DNA of 64,000 nucleotides from Puniceicoccales bacterium Verruco_01 (GCA_001604565.1 LVBV01000016.1:62001-126000); one strand, 5' to 3'; shown: positions 29,789-51,057, numbered from the stretch's first letter. The notes: generated by a model from the letters alone, not told the origin. A program made the numbers and translations.

Positions 29789-30199
29789 CGTGTCATCTTT
29801 GACGGGTTGCCCTGTTCGGCAAGCCGCAAGTCGGGAGGTTTTTCGCGACGGGTGAATCCTGAGGCTTGTCGGCGTTTTTCATCATCGGCAGGGTGTCGTC
29901 TTTGCATAGATCGGGGTGGGGTGGGTGTGCGCTATTTTGCAATTCTTTTGCGAAGGACCGGGGTCTTTTCGGATGGCTTTCCTGCCGCATTGTTCGCAGG
30001 AATCTGTCGGAGTCGGCGGCGTTACCTAGGGGAATGGAAGAAAAGGTTGCGCCGCGTCTCCCACTGGCGCAAAGTGACTTTCCGTTCCTTGAAATCGCAC
30101 CATTGCGGGATGTTTTCCACCCGGCACCATGCCGTGTGACGACTTCCCGCCTGTCCGGATTCATCCGGACCGACCGGCGATTTCAGCGGACGCCTATTG
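29789..30199. other. Non-coding stretch upstream of ssrA
   Basis: These 411 bases hold no convincing gene; short open frames lack start signals and family features. A 7-bp hairpin, GTCCGGA-ttca-TCCGGAC (30153-30170), sits 30 bases before the tmRNA 5' end. The region should contain the ssrA promoter, and GACTTTCCGTTCCTTGAAAT-like AT/GC-mixed sequence occurs near 30075, but I cannot assign boxes. Confidence 0.5.
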
Positions 30200-30551
30200 G
30201 GGGTGTTCCGGAATTCGACCGATGGTCGGCGCTCGTGGTTGCATGTCGGAGATGGTGGTTGGCTCCGTATAAAAACTTCCACCACGCCATTAAACGGCAC
30301 AGAAGAATACGCACTCGCGGCTTAATTAACGCCGCGACGCTCCGCCCCTGACGTCAGCTAAGGGGATGGAGCGACGCAAGCTGGCACTTTTCACGGACCG
30401 CTTTTCCGGGTCCGCGAATCGTACCGACAGGAAAATCGCCAAAGGGAAGCCCGCGAGGTGGCGTCCCAAGGTTAACTCAAACACCCCGACAAACATGTAG
30501 AAGCCGCCTGCCAAGGCCACCGGGACGCGGGTTCAACTCCCGCCACCTCCA
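30200..30551 (+). ncRNA. ssrA: Transfer-messenger RNA
   Basis: The ends form a 7-bp tRNA-like acceptor stem, GGGGGTG (30200-30206) with CACCTCC (30544-30550), one G-U pair. The T arm is GCGGG-TTCAACT-CCCGC just before the 3' end. The CCGGAATTCGACC block after the 5' end matches the conserved tmRNA 5' region. An internal frame ends NGTEEYALAA followed by TAA (30293-30325), a ClpXP-type degradation tag. In that frame the usual Ala or Gly resume codon is not obvious (upstream codons CCA, TTA, AAC), so the first tag residue is unassigned. CCA is not encoded. Length, 352 nt, is normal. Confidence 0.93.
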
Positions 30552-30743
30552 AGATTTTTCTGTTTTGAGCCGTTTTGTAAGCAGCTCATGTTTCGTGTCT
30601 TACGAATCTCGAACGCATTGCGTTCAACTGTGCTCAGGACAGTTTTTGCGCTCTCAGGACAACTCGACGCTACTGGGCGTGTGGATTTTGCCTTAACTGA
30701 TGCTTAACAGGCTGCTGAAGTTGTGTGAGGCCGGATTCCAGCA

Positions 30744-31787
30744 CTACGCTAGCCATCTGCGGAGCTGACGGTCCTCGATCTCTGGGAATGCTTGGCGGAC
30801 TGCGGTCAAGGCGCTGCGGCCTTCTCCTCGGGCAGTGGAAGCTAGTGCGCGCACTTGGTTGCGCATGATGCTCTGGCGTTGCACGCCGCGGGCCTTGTGT
30901 AGCCTGCTGATCGCACTGAGAGCAAGGTCACGCTTCAGATCCAGACTCATGTAGCCGGGGACAAAGATCTGCGTGCCGTATGGAGTCACGTTGACAGAAG
31001 GTTTCATGAGCAACGGTCGGTCGCCGTCCATAGCCCAGAGAAACCATTTCCAGCAAAAGATTGAGAATGCTACGCGGAACTGCTCGCGCTCGTCATCGAA
31101 AGCCCATGTAGCATGCTGTTCCCAGTTGCGTTCCGGGATGAGAGGACGACGCAGTTTGCGCTCTATCACGAGGTCCGGCCAGCGTTCCTGTGGGTTGCGG
31201 AAGAGTTGCTTGAGCAGTGCCCAGTCCGCAGCAAAGGCTCGGGATGTCTCCAGGTGTTTTTGGTAATCTTTGAATTTCTGCTCTCCTTCTTTCGTCAGGT
31301 AGTCTTCGAATCGTCCGATCTGCACAGCCGTTTCGTGAGCTGCGATTGCATGCGCGTCATCAAGAATCAGCCGGTTGAGTCCGCACTCGCCGTCAGCATA
31401 GTGGCTCTGGATCATGCCTGCGATGGCAAGTATGTCGGCGGGGATTGGGGTCAGGTTGCCTTTCAGAACTTCCATCAGGCGTTGCGCACACTGGGGCAAT
31501 GGGTGTGGAAACGGTGACGTGCCCTGCCATAGTGCCAGGCAGATCCAGCCGAATGCGTCCGCAATTCCCTGCTCGGCATTTTCATCACGGGCGTCCAACC
31601 GCTCTGGAAGCTCTTTGAACAAGAAGTCCAGCGCGTTCGGAAAGAATGCCAGATCCACAAGCGGCGATCGCCCGTTCGCTACTGTGGTAGGCCAATCGGG
31701 GATCTCGAATCGCTTTAACCACAACGCCTTGAATGGAACTCTCCTCTGGGTGTGGTCTATATTCCCGTTGGTCATCAATGTAGACAT
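30744..31787 (-). CDS. Hypothetical protein, unknown family
   Basis: This 347-aa soluble protein has no motif I recognise. It is rich in Trp and aromatic residues (WQGTSPFPHPLPQ, FCWKWFLWAMDGDRP) and ends in a basic segment that could bind nucleic acid (RDLALSAISRLHKARGVQRQSIMRNQVRA..DRQLRRWLA). AAGGA lies six bases before the ATG at 31787, supporting the start. It is the first gene after ssrA and is divergent from the MBL-fold gene with 43 bases between the starts. That spacing suggests shared control. Confidence 0.55.
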   Translation of the reverse strand: MSTLMTNGNIDHTQRRVPFKALWLKRFEIPDWPTTVANGRSPLVDLAFFPNALDFLFKELPERLDARDENAEQGIADAFGWICLALWQGTSPFPHPLPQCAQRLMEVLKGNLTPIPADILAIAGMIQSHYADGECGLNRLILDDAHAIAAHETAVQIGRFEDYLTKEGEQKFKDYQKHLETSRAFAADWALLKQLFRNPQERWPDLVIERKLRRPLIPERNWEQHATWAFDDEREQFRVAFSIFCWKWFLWAMDGDRPLLMKPSVNVTPYGTQIFVPGYMSLDLKRDLALSAISRLHKARGVQRQSIMRNQVRALASTARGEGRSALTAVRQAFPEIEDRQLRRWLA

Positions 31788-36250: not shown

Positions 36251-36269
36251 CTCACTCTGGTAGAGTGAG
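36251..36269. promoter_or_regulatory. Perfect 8-bp hairpin at the integrase translation start
   Basis: CTCACTCT-ggt-AGAGTGAG lies immediately before the integrase ATG at 36274 and overlaps an in-frame GTG at 36265. It would sequester the ribosome-binding region in the mRNA, or act as an operator in DNA. No T run follows, so a terminator is unlikely. Confidence 0.55.
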
Positions 36270-36273
36270 TGCG

Positions 36274-37302
36274 ATGGGAACCCGCAATCACTGTTTGGGG
36301 CCGAGACAGATCGCACGATTTGAACAGGCAGCCTCGCTCCTGCCGGGCGTGGACCCGGTGGAGGTTTACCGCTTCTACATTCGCCATACGCAGAGCGGGC
36401 GGAAGTCGGTCGCGCTTGCTGACGCCTCGCGGAGTTACCTCCAGATGCTCGTCGAAACGGGCCGCGCCGTTGCCTACGTGAGCCATGCCCGCAAGGCGCT
36501 GGAGGACTTCGCTGACGAACTTGGGAGCCGCGATGTGGCGGACTATGACGCCGAGTCGATTCGTGGCCACCTCTACTGCCTCAATTACTCGCCGGTCACG
36601 ATCCGCCACCGGCGCGGGCACCTGCTTTGCGCCTTCGCCTGGTGGGTCGAGCAGGGCTGGATCGACGCGAACCCCGTGGAGAAGGTGAAGCGTCCGAACG
36701 TCGTGAGCGGCGAGCCGGGAATCCTGCCCGTCGCCGACATGGAACGCCTCTTCCGCGCCAACGAAAAGGTGGACCCCGGCATCTGCGGAATCCTCGCCCT
36801 CGGAGCGTTTGCCGGGATGCGCACCTCGGCCATCGGGCGGCTCGACTTCGAGGAGCTGGACTTCGGCCAGCGCGGCATCCTGACGCCCGCGTGCAAAACG
36901 AAGAAGCGGCGCCGCCAGTGGATCGAAGGCCTGCCGGAAAACCTCTGGAAGTGGCTTGAACGGACGCCGCCGGAGATCTTCGCCCTCGATGGCCGCCAGC
37001 TATTACACCGCCGCGCCGAGGCGTTCAAGCGGGCTGGGCTGCTCATCGAGGCCGACGACATCGCATACGAGAACCGCAAGCGCGAGGCGAGGGGAGAGCC
37101 GCTCGTCACCTGGCAGCCGACGCACCCGCCCAAGAACTGCCTGCGCCACAGCTTCGCCACCTACCACGTAGCCCTGCACCGCGACCCCGGCAAGACCGCG
37201 CTGATCCTCAGCCACCGCAATCAGCAGGTTCTCTACCAGCACTATCTAGGGATCGCGACAAGCGCCGAGGCGGAGAAATACTTCAGGATTCTGCCGAGGT
37301 GA
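36274..37302 (+). CDS. Tyrosine recombinase / site-specific integrase
   Basis: This 342-aa integrase has an N-terminal SAM-like core-binding domain (VAYVSHARKALEDFADELG..TIRHRRGHLLCAFAWWVEQGWI). The catalytic domain has R in AGMRTSAI, then NCLRHSFATY, LSHRN and the presumed nucleophile Y in VLYQHYLG. The common HxLR histidine is Asn here. The start is the ATG at 36274; a GTG three codons upstream lies inside a hairpin. It probably mobilised part or all of the island downstream of ssrA. It points away from ssrA and is 5.7 kb from it, so it may be a secondary element. Confidence 0.88.
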   Translation: MGTRNHCLGPRQIARFEQAASLLPGVDPVEVYRFYIRHTQSGRKSVALADASRSYLQMLVETGRAVAYVSHARKALEDFADELGSRDVADYDAESIRGHLYCLNYSPVTIRHRRGHLLCAFAWWVEQGWIDANPVEKVKRPNVVSGEPGILPVADMERLFRANEKVDPGICGILALGAFAGMRTSAIGRLDFEELDFGQRGILTPACKTKKRRRQWIEGLPENLWKWLERTPPEIFALDGRQLLHRRAEAFKRAGLLIEADDIAYENRKREARGEPLVTWQPTHPPKNCLRHSFATYHVALHRDPGKTALILSHRNQQVLYQHYLGIATSAEAEKYFRILPR

Positions 37303-40075: not shown

Positions 40076-40684
40076 ATGAGTGGTGGCGACTACTCCGAAC
40101 GCCAGCGCGCGCGCAACGCGGACTACAGCCGCGCCTACGCCGACTGGGTCGCCAAGCTCGGACCTCGCGAGCGTCGCAAGCTACGCAAGCAGGGCCTGCT
40201 CACCGCCGAGCCCGACCGCTACGAAACAGGCAAGCCCTGCGACGTGTCGGAGTTGCCTCTAGTCGGCGATGACGGCGTGGCGATCGAGGATGGCGACTGC
40301 GAAGCCGACGCTACGGACCCTGCGCTCACCATGGTGAACCCTACGCAGGCTGCGCCGGACTACGACCGCGTCTGGGAGGTGTTGCGTCGGCTCCTTGGCG
40401 AACTCCTCTCTACGCCCAATGCCCAGCTTTCGCTGGAATGCCTGGCGCTCGTTAGCGGCGTCGGTTTCATGGGCGACTCGATGACCGCGATCGCGAAGCG
40501 CCACGGCGTTACCCGCGCCGCCGTGTCGAAGCGCTGCATCCAACTGACCGAACAACTCGACATGCTGCCCAGTCGCGCCATGCGCTCGTTGACAGCGCGC
40601 GCCACGTATCGAACCGCACAAACCAAACACTATGAGCTTCGAGAACGCTTTGACCATCGACAGCGCGACCGTTCGCGCGACTGA
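40076..40684 (+). CDS. Helix-turn-helix protein of the mobile element
   Basis: This 202-aa protein has a charged N-terminus (RQRARNADYSRAYADWVAKLGPRERRKLRKQGL). A C-terminal helix-turn-helix follows: SMTAIAKRHGVTRAAVSKRCIQLTEQL, of the sigma-region-4/MarR-like type. It begins 26 bases after the last CAGTGTCA iteron and is the best candidate for the iteron-binding factor. It overlaps the next gene by 53 bases. The exact family is unknown to me. Confidence 0.65.
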   Translation: MSGGDYSERQRARNADYSRAYADWVAKLGPRERRKLRKQGLLTAEPDRYETGKPCDVSELPLVGDDGVAIEDGDCEADATDPALTMVNPTQAAPDYDRVWEVLRRLLGELLSTPNAQLSLECLALVSGVGFMGDSMTAIAKRHGVTRAAVSKRCIQLTEQLDMLPSRAMRSLTARATYRTAQTKHYELRERFDHRQRDRSRD

Positions 40685-41327
40685 AACCGGCCTCTGTTTC
40701 GACGGCGACCTCTCCTTTGAGGAATGGCGCGACGTGGGCCGCAAGGTGGGCCGCGTGGCACGCACCTCGCTCTTCCTCGTCGGCGACTGGCTCGTCTATG
40801 GCGAGTCCCGCTGGAACGGCGGCGAACGCTTCGAGAAGATGCCGGGCGAACAGGCTGAGCGCTACATCGAGGCCATGCAGGAGACCGGCCTTGAACTACG
40901 CACGCTGATGGACGCGGCCTACGTGGCGCGGAGCGTGCCCTACGCCGAGCGTCGCCCGCAGCTGACCTTCGAGCACCACAAGGCCGTGGCGAGCCTGAAG
41001 AGCGAGGACGAGCGCTGCGAGTGGCTGGAGAAGGCGGACAAGCAGGGCCTTTCGACGCGGCGCCTGCGTAAGTCGATCCAGCTCGGCCACGTGGCGACAA
41101 AGAGCGAGATGCAGACGCCGGAGGTGACGCGAGGAATCGACAACCACATCCCGTGGGTGAACGGGCTTTTGCGTTGGTGGAAGAAGTTCGAGGAGTCGGG
41201 CTGGGTCGAGAACGCCACGCGCGAGCAACTGGACGCCGTGCTCGCCGACCTGCGCGAAGTCGAGGCACTGCTGGAGAAGCTGAAAGAAGCCCGCGACGAC
41301 AAGGAGGCGGTGATCGATATCCAGTAG
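40632..41327 (+). CDS. Plasmid/phage-type hypothetical protein
   Basis: This 231-aa protein begins with a segment about binding or size control I cannot name (SFEEWRDVGRKVGRVARTSLFLVGDWLVYGE). A helical middle follows with LTFEHHKAVASLKSEDERCEWLEKADKQGLSTRRLRKSI, a pattern seen in phage and plasmid proteins with a ParB-type helix-turn-helix flavour. The C-terminus is a coiled coil (LDAVLADLREVEALLEKLKEARDDKE). It overlaps the preceding HTH gene by 53 bases, so the two are probably translated from one message. Confidence 0.6.
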   Translation: MSFENALTIDSATVRATETGLCFDGDLSFEEWRDVGRKVGRVARTSLFLVGDWLVYGESRWNGGERFEKMPGEQAERYIEAMQETGLELRTLMDAAYVARSVPYAERRPQLTFEHHKAVASLKSEDERCEWLEKADKQGLSTRRLRKSIQLGHVATKSEMQTPEVTRGIDNHIPWVNGLLRWWKKFEESGWVENATREQLDAVLADLREVEALLEKLKEARDDKEAVIDIQ

Positions 41328-41329
41328 CA

Positions 41330-41386
41330 CGCAGTTGAGTCCCATCGACTCGTGGCGCCACGAATCGAGCGGACGCTACTGGAGGC
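41330..41386. repeat. 57-bp dispersed repeat, copy 1, with 14-bp palindrome
   Basis: This copy begins CGCAGTTGAGTCC and ends near ACTGGAGGC. It differs from the copy at 41735 at about four positions. Its centre is the perfect palindrome TCGTGGCGCCACGA (41350-41363), extended by partly matching CGA/TCG arms. It lies just after the stop of the gene at 40632. Confidence 0.8.
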
Positions 41387-41486
41387 GACTCAATGTGCGA
41401 TACCCAAGAAACCCGCGAAGAAATGACAGCCGAAACAGAGGATGCACGCAGGGCAATGCAGGCCAGCTTACACCGCGACACGCCAG

Positions 41487-41618: not shown

Positions 41619-41734
41619 GAGGTATACGCCACGGAGCCAGCCACGATGAAGAACGCGACCAAGCATAACACCAACCTTTCCACCGCCGCCATCATGGTGG
41701 CCTCGCTCCTTGGCCGAGTTCATTTTGAGTTGCC

Positions 41735-41791
41735 CGCAGTTGAGTCCAATCGACTCGTGGCGCCACGAATCGAGCAGACGCTACTGGATGC
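41735..41791. repeat. 57-bp dispersed repeat, copy 2, with 14-bp palindrome
   Basis: This is a second copy of the 41330 repeat in the same orientation, 405 bases away. The palindrome TCGTGGCGCCACGA is exactly preserved (41755-41768). The palindrome is kept while flanking bases vary, which suggests it is the functional core. Confidence 0.8.
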
Positions 41792-41980
41792 TACCAGATG
41801 TGGAGGCCGACAATGAGGAGCAGCGCCAAGTCCAGTAGCACCGAGTAGACAAAGGAGGGGGGCGTTCAGGAGTCTTCTTGCCTCCTAATGACGATTTAGG
41901 GTCCCTCAGCAGACCGGCTTGTTTGAGAGACATTACGATTTTTCAATTTCCCACATAAATCAGCCCTTCAATCCCTCGGA

Positions 41981-42017: not shown

Positions 42018-42100
42018 TGGGAAATCGGGGTGGGAAATTGCCCGCCAACTTCCCACTTGGGCATGGGAAATTTCCCATCGGGCAAAACGGGAAATCGATG
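42018..42100. promoter_or_regulatory. Cluster of TGGGAAAT boxes with a 16-bp palindrome
   Basis: GTGGGAAAT occurs near 42018 and 42030, a degenerate inverted box near 42048, and GGGAAAT again near 42089. At 42063-42078 two boxes fuse into the perfect palindrome ATGGGAAATTTCCCAT. Another inverted box (AATTTCCCA) lies upstream at 41945. Repeated half-sites plus one full palindrome look like operators for a dimeric repressor. Confidence 0.6.
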
Positions 42101-42214: not shown

Positions 42215-42476
42215 GAATAACACATCTGAAACTGACGAAATGAAAGCGCGGATGCAGGCGGGATTCACGCTCCTGCACGCGATAGCGGAGACAATCCGCT
42301 TTCTGGGCGAAGTGCCCTCGGGGGAAATCTACTCGAGGCTCTCCGGACGGATCACGCTCGGCGACTACGAGCGGGCGATCTCGATCCTGAAACGCTCCGG
42401 CCTCGTGAGCGAGACGCGCAGCCACCTCCTCCGTTGGAACAAGTCGGCGGAAACGGGGAAGGAGACCGCGCGATGA
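42213..42476 (+). CDS. Small phage-type protein, possible winged helix
   Basis: This 87-aa protein starts the compact phage-like operon. It has a helical core, GFTLLHAIAETIRFLGEVPSGEIYSRLSGRITLGDYERAISILKRSGLV. That arrangement suits a small winged helix (helix, helix, GLV wing), so it could be the operon's own regulator. An inverted repeat overlaps its start codon. Its stop overlaps the next ATG (ATGA). Confidence 0.6.
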   Translation: MNNTSETDEMKARMQAGFTLLHAIAETIRFLGEVPSGEIYSRLSGRITLGDYERAISILKRSGLVSETRSHLLRWNKSAETGKETAR

Positions 42477-42988
42477 ACAAGCTCTACTGGATCATTTGCG
42501 AGGAGGGGGAGAAAACGCTCTACGAGGGGCGCTACCTTGGGCGCACGCGAGGCGCGGCGCTGAAATACATGAAGGAAGAGGTGGGCCGGTCGAATCTGAC
42601 CGGCCTTGTTTATACCATCACGGAGATCCCCGTGCCGCTGATACGCGAGATTGTGGCCGAGGTAATACGAGGCAACGTAAGCGCCTTCCCGCTCTCCGAA
42701 ACGCGCCCGCCCGCTCCGGCGCAGCACCCCGAAACGCCCGCACGCTACGGAGCCTTCAGAGCCGACACGGTGGTGTTGGAACCGGCGGACGAGGCCGACC
42801 CGCCTCCTCGCGGGGCGACGGTTCACCTGCGGACGGACTACGACTGGGCGAAAATCAAGGCGTGCTACATGGACGGGCGCGGCCCGAAGGACGTTGCGGC
42901 GATCATGGGCGTGCCGGTAAACACGCTCGCCAAGCGGATCACGCGCGAAGGCTGGGCACGCGAAAGGAGGCAGGCATGCGCACGATAG
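42473..42988 (+). CDS. Phage-type protein with C-terminal HTH
   Basis: This 171-aa protein starts at the ATG that overlaps the previous stop. The N-terminal 70 residues (MNKLYWIICEEGEKTLYEGRYLGRTRGAALKYM..) form a compact alpha/beta unit, and a proline-rich linker follows. The last 40 residues (YDWAKIKACYMDGRGPKDVAAIMGVPVNTLAKRITREGWARER) are an HTH of the kind found in terminase small subunits. Its stop lies 13 bases into the next gene. Confidence 0.6.
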   Translation: MNKLYWIICEEGEKTLYEGRYLGRTRGAALKYMKEEVGRSNLTGLVYTITEIPVPLIREIVAEVIRGNVSAFPLSETRPPAPAQHPETPARYGAFRADTVVLEPADEADPPPRGATVHLRTDYDWAKIKACYMDGRGPKDVAAIMGVPVNTLAKRITREGWARERRQACAR

Positions 42989-43626
42989 CCAAGCGAAAGG
43001 GCAGGGTGGAGCGACCGAGGCCGCTCGCATGGAAGCCCCGCCAGCCCTCTGATCTCGTCGGCCCGTCGCGGCTCATCGCAGAGAAGCTCATGGCCAAGGC
43101 GCGGCGCGGCGGAACGGAGCCGGTGAAGCTCCTCCTCTACGGCCCGCCGGGCGTCGGCAAGAGTTCGATCGCGGACATGCTCGCCCTCGAATTCACGCTC
43201 TCGCCATGGAGCATCGAGGAGGTGCCCGGCAAGGTCGTGACGGTCGAAACCGTGAAGGACTGGATGCGCGAATTGGCCTACGGGAGCCTCTACTCGGAGT
43301 GGTCGGTGAAGGTCGTGAACGAGCTCGATCGCTGCTCGCGGGACGCGCAGGACCTGCTCCTTGGCTACCTCGACAAGATGCCGCCGGGCCGGGGCTTCAT
43401 CGGGACGAGCAACCTCGACCTCGGCCAATTGACGGAGCGATTCCAGACCCGTTTCCAGTCGATCAAACTCGAAGCCCCGAACTCGGATGAGATACGGGGC
43501 TTTTTGATGGCGCACTGGAAGGTGCCGGAGGCGGTCGCCGCGATGATCGCCGTCGGTTGCGGCGGGAACGTCAGGGCGGCGCTGGCCGACCTCGAAACCC
43601 ACTTCGACGCCACCTGCCATGACTAG
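42976..43626 (+). CDS. AAA+ ATPase, clamp-loader/RuvB-like
   Basis: This 216-aa ATPase has a strong ribosome site, AAAGGAGG, five bases before the ATG. The core has Walker A GPPGVGKSS, Walker B VKVVNELDR, a sensor-1-like TSNLDLG and an arginine-finger-like ERFQTRFQS. NELDR and the SNL sensor are reminiscent of clamp-loader (DnaX/RFC) subunits, not MoxR or ClpX. It is small, with a short lid domain. The next gene encodes a product with a sliding-clamp motif, so an association with the host clamp is plausible. Confidence 0.78.
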   Translation: MRTIAKRKGRVERPRPLAWKPRQPSDLVGPSRLIAEKLMAKARRGGTEPVKLLLYGPPGVGKSSIADMLALEFTLSPWSIEEVPGKVVTVETVKDWMRELAYGSLYSEWSVKVVNELDRCSRDAQDLLLGYLDKMPPGRGFIGTSNLDLGQLTERFQTRFQSIKLEAPNSDEIRGFLMAHWKVPEAVAAMIAVGCGGNVRAALADLETHFDATCHD

Positions 43627-44527
43627 CCACGAAGAGTTCAGGGGCGTGCTTCGAAGCGTGATCTCCAAGGCCGACAACTGGCCGCGCAAGCCCGATCCGC
43701 GTCTCCAGATCAAGACAAAGCCGCACGGCTGGCTGTTGCCCGTCCTGCTTGAGTGCGAAAGCGCGTGTTGGGGCAGGTGGGACCACTGGTTCCGGACGAT
43801 GGAAGCGGGCCGCGTCCTCGACGAGCCTATCCCGCAGATCGACTTTCAGCCAGACGCGGCGGGGCTTGCCCGCAAGATGCACGAGAAGTCTTTGGATGCC
43901 ATCGCGCGCGGCAGCTGGCTCGGTTGGGATAGCTGGCGCATCTTCGACTACTACCTCGACTGGCTCCTTTACGCCTTCGGGAGTCCGCAGCAACCGGAGC
44001 CGCCGCGCGAGGTGGAGGAGGGCGCGTTCGCCCGGCTTTACCAGGTGTTCTGCCTCGAAGCGATGATCGCCTGGCCTGCGGACCTCTTCGGCGACATGCT
44101 GGCCGAGAACCGCCACGGGCGCGCCAACGGGTTCTTCCCGACGCCGCACAGCCTCGTCGAACTCATGACGAAGCTGACCTTCGGCGACGGCGACCATCGG
44201 CTCCAGACCGTGTATGATTCCTGCACGGGCACGGGCCGGATGCTGCTCCATGCGAGCAACCACAGTTACCGTCTCTTCGGGCAGGACATCAACACGACGG
44301 TGCTCAAAGCCTGCGCGGTGAACGCCTACTGCTTCGCGCCTTGGATGGTGCGGCCATTTCCATTCCTGAAGGACGATGCGCCGGAAGCCGTGGAGCCGGT
44401 GGCGCTGCCGGAGCCTCCGATGCCGCCTGCTCTTGAGCCGATTCAGCCCGTGAAACCGGTGGGGGTCCCGCAGTTCAGGCCCGGCAGGAAACCGGAACCG
44501 GCGCAGCTGACGCTCTTCGACTTTTGA
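43619..44527 (+). CDS. N6-adenine methylase-like protein ending in a sliding-clamp motif
   Basis: This 302-aa protein has a methylase core: GFFPTPHSLVELMTKL (a target-strand entry helix like that of HsdM), the SAM motif VYDSCTGTGRMLLHA near 198-212, and DINTTVLKACAVNAY. The catalytic NPPF/NPPY motif expected about 60 residues later is missing, where instead a proline-rich tail appears. The last residues are AQLTLFDF, a match to the QLxLF beta-clamp-binding consensus. It may bind DNA and clamp without methylating. It overlaps the AAA+ gene by eight bases. Confidence 0.75.
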   Translation: MTSHEEFRGVLRSVISKADNWPRKPDPRLQIKTKPHGWLLPVLLECESACWGRWDHWFRTMEAGRVLDEPIPQIDFQPDAAGLARKMHEKSLDAIARGSWLGWDSWRIFDYYLDWLLYAFGSPQQPEPPREVEEGAFARLYQVFCLEAMIAWPADLFGDMLAENRHGRANGFFPTPHSLVELMTKLTFGDGDHRLQTVYDSCTGTGRMLLHASNHSYRLFGQDINTTVLKACAVNAYCFAPWMVRPFPFLKDDAPEAVEPVALPEPPMPPALEPIQPVKPVGVPQFRPGRKPEPAQLTLFDF

Positions 44528-44543
44528 CACCTGAGCGCTGGTC

Positions 44544-45206
44544 ATGAAGAGCGAGACAGGCGCAAAGGCGAAGGCGTTGGCCGACGGGGTGGAGGTGTGG
44601 TGCAGCTTCGACAAGCTCGTGCCCGTGGGCGACCTCCAGCCCAATCCCCGGAACCCGAACACGCACCCGGCGAAACAGGTGGAACTGCTCGCGAAGAACA
44701 TCCGCTACTTCGGATGGCGGCACCCGATCACGGTTTCGCGCCTAAGCGGCTGCATTGTGGCCGGTCACGGAAGGCTGGAGGCGGCGAAGGCGCTCGGCAT
44801 GCAGATTGTGCCGGTGGATTATCAGGACTTCGCGAGCGAGAACGACGAAATGGCGGTGCTCGTTGCCGACAACCGTCTTGCGGAACTGGCGACGACCGAC
44901 CTCAACACGCTCGAATCGGTCATCAAGGACCTGAAAGTGGCCGACTTCGACACGCTCCTGACCGGCTTCGAGGACAGCGACCTTGAGAGCCTGCTCGGGC
45001 AGGTCGGGGAAGACTCGGTCGAAGACGGCGAGGCCGATCCCGCCGACGAGGACCTCGGCAAGGGCGACGTGACGATCGCGCTCGGCCTCTACCGCTTCAA
45101 GCTGACGCAGGAGGACTACCTCGCGTGGATTGACAGCGTGAAACAGGCCGTGGGCTTCGACAAGGAGTCCGTCACCAAGGAACTGCGCAGGAGGCTCTCC
45201 ATATGA
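44544..45206 (+). CDS. ParB/sulfiredoxin-fold protein
   Basis: This 220-aa protein has the ParB N-terminal fold: LQPNPRNPNTHPAKQVELLAKNIRYFGWRHPITV, then GCIVAGHGRLEAAKALGM, in which GHGR stands for the GERR/GxxR nucleotide motif. Such stand-alone ParB domains are frequent in phages next to DNA methylases. It may bind CTP or ATP. The C-terminal 90 residues are acidic and helical. Its stop overlaps the start of the double-ParB gene by four bases (ATGA). Confidence 0.88.
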   Translation: MKSETGAKAKALADGVEVWCSFDKLVPVGDLQPNPRNPNTHPAKQVELLAKNIRYFGWRHPITVSRLSGCIVAGHGRLEAAKALGMQIVPVDYQDFASENDEMAVLVADNRLAELATTDLNTLESVIKDLKVADFDTLLTGFEDSDLESLLGQVGEDSVEDGEADPADEDLGKGDVTIALGLYRFKLTQEDYLAWIDSVKQAVGFDKESVTKELRRRLSI

Positions 45207-46714
45207 TCACGCTCGAACCTATTTCAGCAGTCACGCCATCAACTTATAATCCTCGCAGCGCCGACGCCGCACGACTCGACCTGATCGAGCTGTCGCTGCG
45301 CAAGCTCGGCTTCCTCGCGCCGATCTACGCGGACAGCAACGGTGAAATCCTCTCCGGCCACCAGCGCCACCTCGTGGCCTCCCGCATGGGCGCGGCGGAG
45401 ATTCCGGTGTTTCGCACGAAGGCGATGGATCTCGCCCAGCGCAAGGCCCTGAACATCGTCTTCAACCGCGCGACGAACGACTTTGACTGGAACAGCACGC
45501 CGCAGAAGGCGACGCGGGAACTGGCCGCGCTCGACGTGCAAAAGCTCGCCGCCGCGATCCCCGACAAGGCCGTCGGCTCGCCAGATTTCTACCGCTGCGT
45601 GCGCCCGAACATGGTGCCCGTCCGCGACCTCTGCCGCACGAACGCGGGCCGCTGGCTCCAGTATGCCCGGAACCTCGCCCGCACGCTGCACCGTCACGGG
45701 ATTCTCATGCCGATCATCTGCCGCCGCGACGGCACGGTCGTGAACGGCATCGGTCGCCTCGAAATGCTGGCTGAAAAGAAGGCCGAGACCGCGCCCGTCG
45801 TCTATGTGACTGACGAGGAAGCCGCGTTCGCCGAGGCGATGATGAACCTCCTCTCGATGGATTTCGACGTGCATTCTCGCTACGCCGATCTCCTCCGCTA
45901 CAACTCCTTTCGCCGCGCCCGGCGCGTTCGTGAAGAGCTTGGCAACGGCTTCATTTTCGCCGTGCACGGGGCCAAGCCCTGCCATACCTTCGACATCTTC
46001 GACGCGAAACAAAAGGCTCTCTGGACCCGCGAGCACGGGACGACCATTCTCGACTTCGGGGCCGGGCATCTGACGGAAACCGCGATGCTCCGCCGCGCGG
46101 GTTTCACCGTCACGCCCTTTGAGCCGTATCACATCAGCCGCGCCGAAATCGACCGAGACAAGAGCCTCGAAATCTGCCGCGAGTTCCTGAAGGCCGTGGC
46201 CGACGGCACGCAGTGGACCTCGATCTTCCTCGCCAGCGTGCTGAACTCGGTGCCCTTCGCGAGCGACCGCGAGCACATTGCCGTGATCCTTGCCGCGCTC
46301 TGCCGTCCGGAAACCCGCGTCTATGCCTGCGCCTCCAGCGTCAGCGAAACCGGCTGGCGCCAGGTGAATGGCAAGGCGTTCCTCAACAAGTCGAACTCCG
46401 GCAACATCGCCTTCCGCCTCGACTACGAAACGGGCATCCGAATAGGCGATTTCCAAGAGAAGCCAAAAGTTCAGAAATACCACACGGAAAAAGAGTTCCG
46501 TCAGCTATGGACTCCCTTCTTCCGCTCGGTTAGTGTTGCGGAGTTGAGTAACAACGTCACCGCAATCTGCTCGCACGCCCTGCGCGTGGAACCGGAACGG
46601 CTCCGCGCCGCGCTGGAGTTCGAGTTCGACCTGCCGTATCCCGATGGCTCGCGCATGGGGCTCGTGGCTGAGGCGAAAGCGGCGTTCGGCAGGAGGCTGG
46701 GGGTGGCACTGTGA
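45203..46714 (+). CDS. Double-ParB and class I methyltransferase-like fusion
   Basis: This 503-aa protein has three parts. Residues 1-75 are a ParB-like domain (TYNPRSADAARLDLIELSLRKLGFL..GEILSGHQRHLVASRMG). Residues 140-200 are a second copy (RTLHRHGILMPIICRRDGTVVNGIGRLEMLAE). From about 275 a Rossmann methyltransferase-like domain follows, with ILDFGAGHLTET as SAM motif I and FEPYHISR after the next strand. No NPPY or PC motif for adenine or cytosine methylation is seen, so its substrate is open. It overlaps both neighbours (ATGA, GTGA). Confidence 0.78.
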   Translation: MITLEPISAVTPSTYNPRSADAARLDLIELSLRKLGFLAPIYADSNGEILSGHQRHLVASRMGAAEIPVFRTKAMDLAQRKALNIVFNRATNDFDWNSTPQKATRELAALDVQKLAAAIPDKAVGSPDFYRCVRPNMVPVRDLCRTNAGRWLQYARNLARTLHRHGILMPIICRRDGTVVNGIGRLEMLAEKKAETAPVVYVTDEEAAFAEAMMNLLSMDFDVHSRYADLLRYNSFRRARRVREELGNGFIFAVHGAKPCHTFDIFDAKQKALWTREHGTTILDFGAGHLTETAMLRRAGFTVTPFEPYHISRAEIDRDKSLEICREFLKAVADGTQWTSIFLASVLNSVPFASDREHIAVILAALCRPETRVYACASSVSETGWRQVNGKAFLNKSNSGNIAFRLDYETGIRIGDFQEKPKVQKYHTEKEFRQLWTPFFRSVSVAELSNNVTAICSHALRVEPERLRAALEFEFDLPYPDGSRMGLVAEAKAAFGRRLGVAL

Positions 46715-47136
46715 TCTACCTCTTGGACCTCAACTACACCCTCGTCGGGAACTCGCCAAAGCGCGGCGAGCCGCCGCTCCGGCCCTTCATTCGCCAACTG
46801 GAGCAGGAAACCTATCGCGGGTGGCTCGTGGACCTGCTCCGCCCGCATCAGGTGATCCTCATCACGGCCCGTCCCAAGCGTTACCGCGAGGCGACGCTGG
46901 AACGCATCAAGGCTCTGACCGACTGGCAGCCGATGGATGCCTATTTTGCGGAGATCGAAGCGAGACCGCCGCAGATCAAGGAGCACCTCTTGAACACCCA
47001 CATCTTCCCGAAATACGGCACAAGCGGCTACTTCGGGCTGGAGAGCAATCCGCTGACACGGGCGATGTATGCGCGGTATGGAATCAACGCCGTGCGCGTC
47101 TCCGATCAGGAGATGATGTGGCTACCGGGCGACTAA
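46711..47136 (+). CDS. Degenerate HAD-superfamily protein
   Basis: This 141-aa protein begins with a GTG that overlaps the previous stop. Motif I is YLLDLNYTL: the first Asp is kept, but the second is Asn. Motif II is LITARPKRYREATLERI, like polynucleotide-kinase phosphatases. The late acidic motif appears as FGLESNPLTRAMY instead of a DD or GDxxxD. The lost general acid suggests weakened or altered phosphotransfer, perhaps only binding. It closes the phage-type operon. Confidence 0.72.
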   Translation: MIYLLDLNYTLVGNSPKRGEPPLRPFIRQLEQETYRGWLVDLLRPHQVILITARPKRYREATLERIKALTDWQPMDAYFAEIEARPPQIKEHLLNTHIFPKYGTSGYFGLESNPLTRAMYARYGINAVRVSDQEMMWLPGD

Positions 47137-47513
47137 CCGATGTCGCGGAGCAGCTTCTTGTCGAAGGTCTTGAGTTCGCAACCTTCGCTTTTCGCCTTGG
47201 CCCAAATCATGTAGTCGCTGAAGTCCGCCTTGCCCTTGCGGAAATGTTGGAGAACGAGTCGCAAGCGGTCGGAATCCTCGAAAGAGAAGATGGGGTCGTT
47301 CAGGAGGTTTTCGACGATCTCGGCCCAGCCGTCGCGGGATACGCGGTAGGCACTTTCCAGCACCCAGTTGGTTTCGAGGAGCACGAAGTCGAGAAGCAGG
47401 ATGGGGGCATTCTTGCGTGACTCTTTTTCGATGATCGCCGCCACGACGGCGCACTGCGCTTCATCGTCCTGCACAAGAAAACGGACGAGGTGATTGGTAT
47501 CGAAAGCGAGCAT
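47133..47513 (-). CDS. PIN-domain toxin VapC
   Basis: This 126-aa PIN RNase has D5 (MLAFDTNHLVRFL), ETN near 53-55 and the late acidic pair DYMIWAKAK..CELKTFDKKL. It starts at the ATG that shares one base with the antitoxin stop (TAATG), not at the upstream ORF start. Its stop overlaps the HAD-gene stop by four bases, in convergent orientation. Confidence 0.9.
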   Translation of the reverse strand: MLAFDTNHLVRFLVQDDEAQCAVVAAIIEKESRKNAPILLLDFVLLETNWVLESAYRVSRDGWAEIVENLLNDPIFSFEDSDRLRLVLQHFRKGKADFSDYMIWAKAKSEGCELKTFDKKLLRDIG

Positions 47514-47791
47514 TATTCCGCTTCCTTCTTGATGCCGTATTTCTTCATCATGTGCTGCCGGATGCCCTCGTCCATGTCGCTGGCGGAGACCGGTTTCATG
47601 CCCAGCTTGATGAACTTCCTCGCGCAACCGGCTGATGAGCCCGCAGTCCGCTGCTTGCGGACGGAAATCGTGTTCGCATCGGAAACGGAGAACTCAAGCC
47701 GATCCCCGGTGTTGATCGAGAGAGTCCGCCGAAGTGCCTTGGGAAGCGTGATCTGTCCCTTGGAAGTAACCTTTGCCCGTAGCGTTGCCAT
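47513..47791 (-). CDS. AbrB-type antitoxin VapB
   Basis: This 92-aa antitoxin has an N-terminal swapped-hairpin AbrB domain: RAKVTSKGQITLPKALRRTLSINTGDRLEFSV. Its helical C-terminus (SASDMDEGIRQHMMKKYGIKKEAE) should wrap the toxin. It precedes and overlaps the vapC-type gene by one base. It probably represses its own promoter in the 110-base gap to the second toxin-antitoxin pair. Confidence 0.9.
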   Translation of the reverse strand: MATLRAKVTSKGQITLPKALRRTLSINTGDRLEFSVSDANTISVRKQRTAGSSAGCARKFIKLGMKPVSASDMDEGIRQHMMKKYGIKKEAE

Positions 47792-47901
47792 TTCTTACTA
47801 ATCGCACGTTCTGGTAAGAAATCAAGACCTGATTTTGTGACACAACGCCCAATATTGGACCACGGCTTGACTCTTCGGTCATGTCGTGACAGATTTCTGT
47901 C

Positions 47902-48153
47902 ATGCAGACGACGCTACGCATCAAAGATCATCTCTACCGCCGGGCGAAGGCTCGTTCCAGCGCACTTGGTCTGAGCCTCACGCGCTTCTTTGAGGAAGCC
48001 GTGGAGGAACGTCTGGAGCGGTTGGAACGCCGCAGCTCGCACAGGGTTGTCCTGCCAGTCTCCTCGGCGCGGGGTTCCGCGATGAGTCATGAGGAACTCA
48101 AGCGCAAGACTGCTGAAATCGACCTAGCGGACGATCTCGAAAGCCTGAAATAG
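47902..48153 (+). CDS. Antitoxin of a second VapBC-type pair
   Basis: This 83-aa protein has a ribbon-helix-helix-like N-terminus (MQTTLRIKDHLYRRAKARSSALGLSLTRFFEEAVEERLERL) and an acidic C-terminal helix ending DLADDLESLK, which suits toxin binding. It is two bases upstream of the PIN toxin start and divergent from the first pair. Confidence 0.82.
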   Translation: MQTTLRIKDHLYRRAKARSSALGLSLTRFFEEAVEERLERLERRSSHRVVLPVSSARGSAMSHEELKRKTAEIDLADDLESLK

Positions 48154-48155
48154 CC

Positions 48156-48581
48156 GTGTATCTTCCCGACAACAACATCCTCATTAGCGCCTTCAGGGCG
48201 GATACGCAGCACCATCAGGCGGCCAAGAGCTGGCTTGAAGAGACGCTGAACGGCGGGCAATCCATCCGCCTCTTCCCGACGGTCGAGACGGGCTTTTTGC
48301 GCATCGTGACGCATCCGAAGCTCTTCAGCCCGCCTTCCTCGATGGAGGAGGCCGCAGCGTTCCTTTCCGCGCTTTGCGATGCGACGAACGTAGATGTGTG
48401 CCCCTGGGGATCGGAGGATCGAGACCTATGGCTCAAGCTCTGCGCTGATATGCAGCTCGTCGGCAACGATTGCAACGACGCGATGCTGGTCGCGCTGGCG
48501 ATCGGTCGCGGCCTGCACCTTGTGACCTTCGACAAGGGCTTTTCCCGTTTCAAGGGGCTCGACTGCCTGATTCTGTCCTGA
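48156..48581 (+). CDS. PIN-domain toxin (VapC-type) of the second pair
   Basis: This 141-aa protein starts from GTG at 48156. PIN acidic residues are visible as D5 (YLPDNNILISAF), E in TVETGFLRI and D in GNDCNDAMLVALA and TFDKGFSRF. It is the last gene before the metal/sulfur cluster, so the junction between phage-type and ORP-type DNA lies in 48582-48629. Confidence 0.88.
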   Translation: MYLPDNNILISAFRADTQHHQAAKSWLEETLNGGQSIRLFPTVETGFLRIVTHPKLFSPPSSMEEAAAFLSALCDATNVDVCPWGSEDRDLWLKLCADMQLVGNDCNDAMLVALAIGRGLHLVTFDKGFSRFKGLDCLILS

Positions 48582-48990: not shown

Positions 48991-49893
48991 TCAGGATCCA
49001 GAGGCAAAACGATCCCATAAGGCTGTGATGGCCTTTGCTGCAGGGGAGTCAGGCTGTGCGCTGACGATCGGCTTCCCCTTCCTTGTGGCTTTCGCGATTG
49101 CCTCGTCGTAGGGAATTTCTCCGGCAAAGGTTACGCAGGAGTTTTCCGCCAACTTGCGGATGCGCCCGGTTGCCTCCGGGTTGATGTCCGCCTTGTTGAC
49201 GCACACCTGCACCGGCAGATGGAACTGGCGGCAGAGTTCGAGAATGCGGGCGAGGTCGTGCTCGCCCGAGAGCGTTGGCTCGGTGACGGCGAGAACCTGC
49301 GATGCACCGGTGAGACTGGCGATCGTTGGGCAGCCGACGCCGGGCGGGCCGTCGATGATGATGAGGCTGCGCCCGCACTCGGCGGCGGTTTGCCGCGCGC
49401 GGCTCCGCACAAGCGTCGTCAGCTTGCCGGAGTTGCCGAGTCCCGGTTTGAGCCTCGCATGGACGAGCGGGCTGAATACGGTGTCTGAACGGAACAACTC
49501 GCCGCCGACAACCGGGTGCATCGAGACCGCCTTGCGCGGACAGACCGCAACGCATACTCCGCAGCCCTCGCACTCGGACGGCTCGATGGCGAACCTGCGC
49601 CTGCCAGCGTCCGCCGCGGGGTGGATCGCGCTGAAGCGGCACTGGCGCGCGCACCTGCCGCAGCCCGTGCAGAGCGCGGCGTCGATGACGGCCTGCTTGC
49701 CGCCTGTAAAGTCTTCCTTCGTGCGCAGGGTGGGGGAGAGGAGCAGCTCCATGTTGGAGGCATCCACGTCGCAGTCGGCAATGACGGCATTGCCTGCAAG
49801 TGCGGCGAAGGAGGCGGAGACGGTGGTCTTGCCCGTGCCGCCTTTGCCGCTCACGATGACAAGTTCAAAGGGTGCTTGTGGCGTCGGCTTCAT
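48991..49893 (-). CDS. MinD/Mrp-type ATPase with an inserted 2x4Fe-4S ferredoxin domain (first of pair)
   Basis: This 300-aa ATPase has a deviant Walker A, SGKGGTGKTT (15-24), CDVDASN and DGPPGVGCPT as switch II. A ferredoxin insert supplies eight cysteines at about 75-120: CTGCGRCARQC and CEGCGVCVAVC. Paired proteins of this kind occur in the orange-protein (ORP) clusters of Desulfovibrio and relatives, where they associate with a molybdenum-copper NifX-type protein. The start at 49893 overlaps the stop of the sister gene (ATGA), and 92 non-conserved residues upstream are excluded. Confidence 0.9.
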   Translation of the reverse strand: MKPTPQAPFELVIVSGKGGTGKTTVSASFAALAGNAVIADCDVDASNMELLLSPTLRTKEDFTGGKQAVIDAALCTGCGRCARQCRFSAIHPAADAGRRRFAIEPSECEGCGVCVAVCPRKAVSMHPVVGGELFRSDTVFSPLVHARLKPGLGNSGKLTTLVRSRARQTAAECGRSLIIIDGPPGVGCPTIASLTGASQVLAVTEPTLSGEHDLARILELCRQFHLPVQVCVNKADINPEATGRIRKLAENSCVTFAGEIPYDEAIAKATRKGKPIVSAQPDSPAAKAITALWDRFASGS

Positions 49894-50789
49894 GTGAGTT
49901 GGGTGTTGGCCGCCTCGAACAACTTCGGCGCCTGACGCGAACGGGTCCGGGCGGCGATTTGGAGCAGGATTTGCGCGAAGGCACGCTTCAGTTCCGGCAG
50001 GGCACGCACGGCTAGGATGCCGAGTGAATAGGCGCGGGCGATGTCGAGGTTTTGCGGAAGTTCCGCCAGAATAGGGGCCGAGGCCTCGACGCATGCGGCT
50101 TGTATCATGTCCTTGCCTTCGCCGCTGCGGTTGATGACGACGCCGAAGGGCAGCTTCATCTTCGCACACACCTCCATCGCGATCCGCAGATCGTGCAGGC
50201 CGAAGGGCGTCGGCTCTGTGACGAGGATGACGTAATCGCAGCCCTTCACCGTCTCCATCATGGCGCAGGAAGTGCCCGGCGGCGCGTCGAGCAAAACCCA
50301 GCCGTCCGCGTCGCTTTTCGCTGCCTCCTTTGCGGCGCGGATGACGGGCGTGCTGTTGGCAAGGCCCACGGTGAAGGTTCCCGAAACAAAGCTGATCCCG
50401 CCCGCGTGGCCACTACGGATGGTGCCGACGGAGACACGTTCCTCGCGGATGGCCCCCGACGGGCAGACGATCGCGCAGCCGCCGCAGCTGTGGCAGAGTT
50501 CCGGGTGCACTAGCGTCACGTTTGGCAGGCTGGTGAGGGCGCCAAACTGGCAGAACCGCGCGCATTTCCCGCAATGAGTGCAGCGGTCGTTGTCAATAAC
50601 GGGGATGCGGCGCGTCACCTCGGTTTCGCTCTTGATTTCGGGACGCAGGAACAGGTGGCCGTTCGGGGCCTCCACGTCGCAATCAACATAGGTCACTTTC
50701 TCGGCGCAGTCCGCGAGGACCGCGCCGAGATTCGTGGCCACGGTTGTTTTGCCCGTGCCGCCCTTGCCGCTGGCGATGGCGATTCGCAT
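49890..50789 (-). CDS. MinD/Mrp-type ATPase with an inserted 2x4Fe-4S ferredoxin domain (second of pair)
   Basis: This 299-aa paralogue has SGKGGTGKTT near 7-16, CDVEAPNGHLFL and DAPPGTSCAM. The ferredoxin insert has CTHCGKCARFC and CHSCGGCAIVC. The start is the ATG at 50789; the longer frame upstream is a shadow of the glycine-rich gene. It probably forms a heterodimer with the preceding protein and couples ATP hydrolysis to cluster or metal transfer. Confidence 0.9.
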   Translation of the reverse strand: MRIAIASGKGGTGKTTVATNLGAVLADCAEKVTYVDCDVEAPNGHLFLRPEIKSETEVTRRIPVIDNDRCTHCGKCARFCQFGALTSLPNVTLVHPELCHSCGGCAIVCPSGAIREERVSVGTIRSGHAGGISFVSGTFTVGLANSTPVIRAAKEAAKSDADGWVLLDAPPGTSCAMMETVKGCDYVILVTEPTPFGLHDLRIAMEVCAKMKLPFGVVINRSGEGKDMIQAACVEASAPILAELPQNLDIARAYSLGILAVRALPELKRAFAQILLQIAARTRSRQAPKLFEAANTQLT

Positions 50790-50805
50790 GTGCTGAGTGC
50801 GTCGC

Positions 50806-51057
50806 CTACTGGCCGGGATTGGGGGACGGTGGCTGCCCTGGGTTGACCAACGGCGTTTGCTGGGGATTGTTCTGCATGGGACCAAATCCCCTGCCCATCC
50901 CGCGACCGCCCCTGCGGCCCATTCCGCGGCCAAAGCCGTTGCCGTTACCCATGCCGCGACCCTGCCCGCGACGCATCCCGCCGCCACAGGGGCCCATGCC
51001 GCGTCCCGTGCGTTCGCCTGCTCCCTGCGGACCGGTTCCGTCTCTCATTGGTGCCAT
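50806..51057 (-). CDS. DUF5320-like Gly/Arg/Met-rich small protein
   Basis: This 83-aa protein starts MAPMRDGTGPQGAGERTGRG, continues with MGPCGGGMRRGQGRGMG repeats and ends PNPGQ. That composition is typical of DUF5320 proteins found beside NifX-type and Mrp-type genes in anaerobes. It has one Cys and many Met, so it could hold metal, but no function is known. It is 16 bases upstream of the second MinD-type gene. Confidence 0.78.
   Translation of the reverse strand: MAPMRDGTGPQGAGERTGRGMGPCGGGMRRGQGRGMGNGNGFGRGMGRRGGRGMGRGFGPMQNNPQQTPLVNPGQPPSPNPGQ

Follow-up and report, generated by a model that had tools for sequence, protein, structure and literature searches.

What does a run of overlapping genes that joins a clamp-loader-like ATPase, a truncated methylase-like protein and two ParB-type proteins, one of them fused to a methyltransferase, do for the DNA that carries it? 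The run lies in a 64,000-nucleotide stretch of Puniceicoccales bacterium Verruco_01 (hereafter the window), where an earlier note had described five genes that overlap or nearly touch, an arrangement confirmed by the ORF coordinates. All five are on the plus strand and encode an AAA+ ATPase that is clamp-loader-like by Pfam, PHROG and profile matches and lacks a collar domain (42976..43626), an N6-methyltransferase (N6-MTase)-like protein that ends after the SAM-binding motifs, without motif IV (43619..44527), a ParB-like protein (44544..45206; phrog_620, 2e-40), a ParB–ParB–class I methyltransferase fusion (ParB-ParB-MTase; 45203..46714; phrog_5475, 6e-107) and a HAD-like protein with DLN in motif I (46711..47136; phrog_32036, 1e-31). 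The AAA+ gene overlaps the gene of an upstream HTH DNA-binding protein (42473..42988, plus strand; phrog_4151, 4e-4) by 13 bp and the N6-like gene by 8 bp; the N6-like and ParB genes are 16 bp apart, and the ParB-ParB-MTase gene overlaps its ParB and HAD neighbors by 4 bp each. Further upstream on the same strand, an HTH protein termed Sig (40076..40684), with no Pfam match above the cut-off, occupies the same position in related phages and lies close to where the phage-homologous block begins; it is followed by a weakly ParB-HTH-like protein conserved in phages (40632..41327; Pfam HTH_ParB E 0.005, below the cut-off). This block runs from ~39.9 kb to 47.1 kb, possibly to 47.8 kb. The interval 42976–47136 given earlier does contain the five genes, but the functional block reaches further, and its key gene, encoding a CmoA homologue, is missing from the window. 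PADLOC returned only generic AAA and MTase matches on the locus, and therefore no known defence system; an Rfam search gave no match.

The full extent of the block is apparent in related phages. In a first scan of IMG/VR, 86 distinct contigs carried the ParB-ParB-MTase, and the gene order HTH, AAA+, (N6-like), ParB, ParB-ParB-MTase, HAD, CmoA-like, TerS, TerL was kept in 85 of them; the CmoA homologue, TerS and TerL, part of the block in these relatives, are missing from the window. Counted only over contigs with enough sequence for the gene concerned, the HTH gene preceding the AAA+ was present in 45/47, AAA+ in 61/64, the N6-like gene in 7/64, ParB in 74/75, HAD in 85/85, CmoA-like in 76/76, TerS in 51/51 and TerL in 45/45, the block lying just upstream of the terminase genes. 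A second, more distant scan with proteins of Pseudomonas SM1, Aeromonas HJ05 and Gordonia Evaa as queries yielded 76 further loci (33–100% identity, a few on contigs already found), and a CmoA homologue accompanied the ParB-ParB-MTase in all 69 with enough downstream sequence, one branch scoring weakly. The pair is present in the isolates Evaa, SM1 and HJ05 and spans phages of Verrucomicrobiota, Gordonia, Pseudomonas and Aeromonas. Co-occurrence of these genes elsewhere, which the earlier note had singled out as a check, was thus found across IMG/VR contigs; it is above chance, and the cluster is not accidental. Bacteroides phage BS-TP3 was left out as support: its ParB-ParB-MTase-like protein is 24% identical and comes without CmoA, and the N6 protein beside it has an intact NPPF. 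One 82.8-kb IMG/VR contig (3300037781_000208; L018, L092) carries the block twice, together with a C5-MTase at 79382–80578.

The gene 3' of HAD in the relatives encodes a homologue of CmoA, the carboxy-SAM (Cx-SAM) synthase, with TIGR00740 E-values of 6e-26 to 5e-51 for the main branches, as well as profile matches to the CmoA structures 1im8 (9e-60) and 4gek (2e-58). TIGR00740 scores are ~90–174 bits in the main branches and about 51–64 bits in one branch (KELSLSGVQ), none of the phage CmoAs reaching the curated equivalog cut-off (193.3). The CmoA of Synechococcus phage S-B43, which makes Cx-SAM (PMC12783734, Nature Communications, December 2025), reaches 115.6 bits, within the range of the phage CmoAs here. 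In E. coli CmoA, Arg199 binds the carboxylate (PMC3663124). This residue is kept in one large branch (a 72%-identity clade) and is Ala in the window's clade and Thr or Glu in others; in our alignment the window's clade shares Arg203 with S-B43 CmoA, and the KELSLSGVQ branch has neither arginine. Loss of Arg199 may be compatible with activity: in the same alignment the verified S-B43 enzyme lacks it as well. By homology, the phage CmoA of intact relatives is predicted to make Cx-SAM from SAM and prephenate.

The enzyme beside CmoA is unlike the one known to use Cx-SAM. The double-ParB fusion described previously proved correct: the protein matches phrog_5475, a family with no assigned function, over its full length, and comprises a clear first ParB domain, a second that is weak by sequence and supported by the AlphaFold model, and a class I MTase. 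The model, of high confidence (pLDDT 92.6), matches small-molecule class I (N-/O-/C-) MTases and ParB/Noc structures, so the protein is no typical base-methylating NPPY enzyme. Profile and fold matches of the ParB part to Noc and ParB-CDP point to a ParB CTPase fold, whose SGHQR segment (the ParB GxxR-type nucleotide motif) is invariant over 50 ParB-ParB-MTase sequences. Also invariant in these sequences are D284 and G288 of motif I, NSxPFxxDR (348–356), E409 and PKxQK (421–425); the residues of PKxQK, located between the final Rossmann strands, are candidates for carboxylate recognition. No recognised Cx-SAM pocket is held in common with CmoB or CmoX.

In S-B43, CmoX, a C5-MTase homologue, uses Cx-SAM to form 5-carboxymethylcytosine, and ParB-domain genes near CmoA/CmoX were noted with no role given (PMC12783734). 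The loci described here resemble this CmoA-CmoX-CmoY system in placing a phage CmoA homologue beside a SAM-fold enzyme, in the ParB-domain genes nearby in PaBG and TurkishDelight, and in the Asn-synthase-type (CmoY-like) ligase gene of the relative HJ05, ~7 kb away. They differ from it in that CmoX (C5-MTase, SPPC motif, Arg350) is replaced by the small-molecule-type ParB-ParB-MTase, a HAD protein is added in most loci, and the ligase is absent from 17 of the 18 records searched. A C5-MTase lies close to CmoA in S-B43, in Staphylococcus F1 and SPbeta-like phages, and in PaBG and TurkishDelight, where ParB genes adjoin it. No match to the CmoX family (PF00145) occurs anywhere in the Evaa, SM1 or HJ05 genomes, and 14/15 IMG/VR contigs lack one too; PF01555 (N6_N4 MTase) is likewise absent from the three isolates, and the complete Evaa annotation lists gp2 (ParB-ParB-MTase) and gp5 (CmoA) as its sole methyltransferases. 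Given that a C5-MTase, where present, sits close to CmoA and is absent from the isolates with the pair, the fusion appears to occupy the CmoX slot. A literature search on a CmoA–ParB pair or a clamp-motif half-methylase found only PMC12783734 relevant, and the association of phrog_5475 with CmoA is reported here.

Because the ParB-ParB-MTase almost always adjoins the CmoA gene, these phages probably carboxymethylate their own DNA, by an enzyme unlike the known CmoX. We infer both the carboxymethyl transfer and DNA as its substrate, and favor, at a probability of roughly 0.55, a reading in which the ParB-ParB-MTase stands in for CmoX, transferring carboxymethyl groups from Cx-SAM to DNA before packaging, the window copy being incomplete. 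The fusion, aided by the separate ParB protein, would carboxymethylate a base (or another group) in phage DNA and so take the place held by CmoX in the one characterised system; the modified DNA would then be hidden from restriction. Points against this reading are that the fusion shares no recognised Cx-SAM pocket with CmoB or CmoX, that Arg199 is kept in some CmoA branches only, and that the window genome has no recognisable CmoA.

The same fold, closest to small-molecule N-/O-/C-methyltransferases, would also suit an ordinary SAM-dependent MTase that acts after carboxymethylation, for example by esterifying the carboxylate as in the CmoM-type esterification known on tRNA (PMC12783734), with another enzyme transferring the carboxymethyl group. 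In the isolates with the pair, however, searches with PF00145 and PF01555 found no other DNA methyltransferase family member, the two annotated in Evaa being the pair itself, and we consider this order of events unlikely. Still less likely is that CmoA serves host tRNA modification, or depletes SAM against SAM-dependent defences, while packaging or partition is the task of the ParB-type proteins and the adjacency reflects a terminase-side cluster. The position of the block directly before TerS/TerL is compatible with such a cluster, and SAM depletion by phage CmoA has been raised as a possibility (PMC12783734); yet one specific fusion is paired with CmoA across phages of four host groups, and CmoA is tied to a DNA MTase in the CmoX phages.

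A separate question is whether the modification is coupled to replication, as the clamp-related features of the N6-like and AAA+ proteins had suggested. The N6-like protein matches Pfam N6_Mtase (PF02384; 1e-6) over the first third of the profile only, resembling the SAM-binding half of an N6-adenine MTase: it has motifs X, I and II, stops before motif IV and continues through a proline-rich linker into AQLTLFDF, a beta-clamp-type motif at the C-terminus (44501..44524, plus strand). This agrees with the earlier description of a methylase without NPPY that ends in a clamp motif; motif IV, (D/N/S)PP(Y/F/W), is absent from the window protein and its near homologues. Its AlphaFold model was poor (pLDDT 42), and the fold was not used. 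Among homologues, a clamp tail recurs after hypervariable linkers, as QLTLFDF in the window, L007, L008 and L010, QMLLFDEI in L015 and L016, QGLLF in L099 and L100, QLSLSFSA in L112 and QMILLDGI in L111; L101 and L102 have only an internal QALFEP, and in L094 (7200–7325) the gene ends early and a clamp-type tail, QAMLFDEN, lies in another frame. The same trait marks phrog_5696, to which the window protein is only distantly related (3.5e-6). Across 53 non-redundant closed proteins of this family, 34 end in a QLxLF-type tail, versus ~2 expected from shuffled tails, and NPP[YFW] occurs in none; such a tail was found in 13 of 546 other ORFs. Members (L119, L124, L128–L207) end in QLTLF, QLSFF or QLMFF, mostly with TP[MF][YF] downstream, whereas the window protein stops even before the point at which most of them carry this motif. 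The conservation of the clamp motif, posed earlier as a check, is therefore evident in homologues. Judged from these sequences, clamp tethering of a half-methyltransferase looks real and widespread, and the N6-like protein may dock on the host sliding clamp via its C-terminal tail, as a separate, optional SAM-binding half-methyltransferase.

Relatives of the N6-like gene also lie outside the block, both in phages of the Firmicutes type and in Cerasicoccus/Limisphaerales loci, and L094 carries the gene with AAA+ absent. Being optional and found without the block, the N6-like gene can be set apart from the modification core. The AAA+ protein (Pfam AAA, 3e-6; phrog_5846 clamp loader, 1e-12) gives profile matches to RFC and delta-prime, with RFC 1iqp aligned over positions 18–182, and has Walker A, arginine-finger-like and sensor-2-like motifs and a lid. 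Unlike the RFC small subunit and delta-prime, it has Asn for the Walker B Asp (NELD), throughout the family, and no C-terminal collar domain, the 216-aa protein ending after the lid at the same place as all its relatives. The clamp-loader resemblance proposed at the outset thus holds for the core, lid and RFC/DnaX-type motifs, but not for the collar; the protein may be a loader-type ATPase of the block. A replication-coupled module, in which the clamp is loaded by the AAA+ and the N6-like protein, bound to it, delivers the modification enzymes to the fork, is improbable despite the conserved clamp tail, the RFC and delta-prime matches and gene overlaps suggestive of one transcript, given that the N6-like gene is missing from 57/64 block contigs, occurs without AAA+ in L094 and has relatives outside the block, and that the collar domain, which a clamp-loader ring requires, is missing from the AAA+. 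Of the DNA modification or protection module that had been proposed, a phage DNA-modification function is most likely right, on the conserved block and the CmoA neighbor; clamp coupling as its core is not supported, and any link to replication would be accessory at most.

The HAD-like protein had been noted for the loss of one Asp, and a DxN motif is indeed seen and kept across homologues: in place of the DxD of HAD phosphatases, motif I reads DLNYT in at least 85/93 ORFs and DLH in Evaa. Since DLNYT is nearly uniform, the missing Asp is a family trait and not the mark of a decayed copy. A profile search of the HAD protein against the PDB gave chance-level matches only, two of them to polynucleotide kinase-phosphatase.

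The first account of natural DNA carboxymethylation dates from late 2025 and covers a single enzyme type. Were the preferred reading true, carboxy-SAM DNA chemistry would extend beyond C5-cytosine MTases, the phage family phrog_5475, listed as of unknown function, would acquire a role open to testing, and there would be a context for the ParB domains that lie, so far without explanation, near genes of DNA modification. More tentatively, phrog_5475 could constitute a second, unrelated class of Cx-SAM-dependent DNA carboxymethyltransferases, widespread in tailed phages of several bacterial phyla, with ParB-type domains placing the enzyme on DNA; independently, phrog_5696 could comprise widespread phage half-methyltransferases that lack a canonical catalytic motif and are held at the replication clamp. 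The clamp-tail result offers a simple binding test for the latter, another phage family listed as of unknown function.

The block in the window is a phage remnant or an assembly-cut copy in a Verrucomicrobiota genome. The closest genome with the same locus belongs to the same genus (contig LVBW01000018.1 of a Puniceicoccales assembly). A terminase of the same phage type lies in the window's own genome on another contig, C26 (L296, C26:95000–110440, late genes), whose end begins right after the place of cmoA in the relative L098, with an HNH gene between there and TerS. No CmoA homologue was found in the window or its assembled genome (best score 33 bits); the block is either broken at cmoA or cut there by the assembly, and with no recognisable CmoA in the genome the window copy may be dead, unless the assembly missed cmoA. 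Elsewhere in the window, a tmRNA gene (30199–30551) is followed by an ORF (together 30199–31787), and a tyrosine integrase lies 6 kb away (36265–37302); an att repeat matching the tmRNA was looked for and not found.

Directly 3' of the block are two toxin–antitoxin pairs (47133–48581), a PIN toxin with a MazE-type antitoxin (47133..47791, minus strand) and a PIN with a PSK-type partner. A stretch like 47133..47791 sits between HAD and CmoA in phage L094 (66% DNA identity), and the PIN/MazE-type pair is on this ground probably still phage cargo. Beyond them, two adjoining MinD/Mrp-type ATPases with ferredoxin-like inserts (48991–50987, minus strand) are apparently host genes. Upstream of the operon, a 75-nt repeat with the perfect palindrome core TCGTGGCGCCACGA occurs in two copies (41323..41397 and 41728..41802) and was seen nowhere but in this intergenic region, both here and in the close relatives L008, L098 and L015; these palindromic repeats are possible ParB or operator sites. 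Several palindromic iterons of the GGGAAATT type lie at 42020–42100, 5' of the operon, and are also present in L098 and L008.
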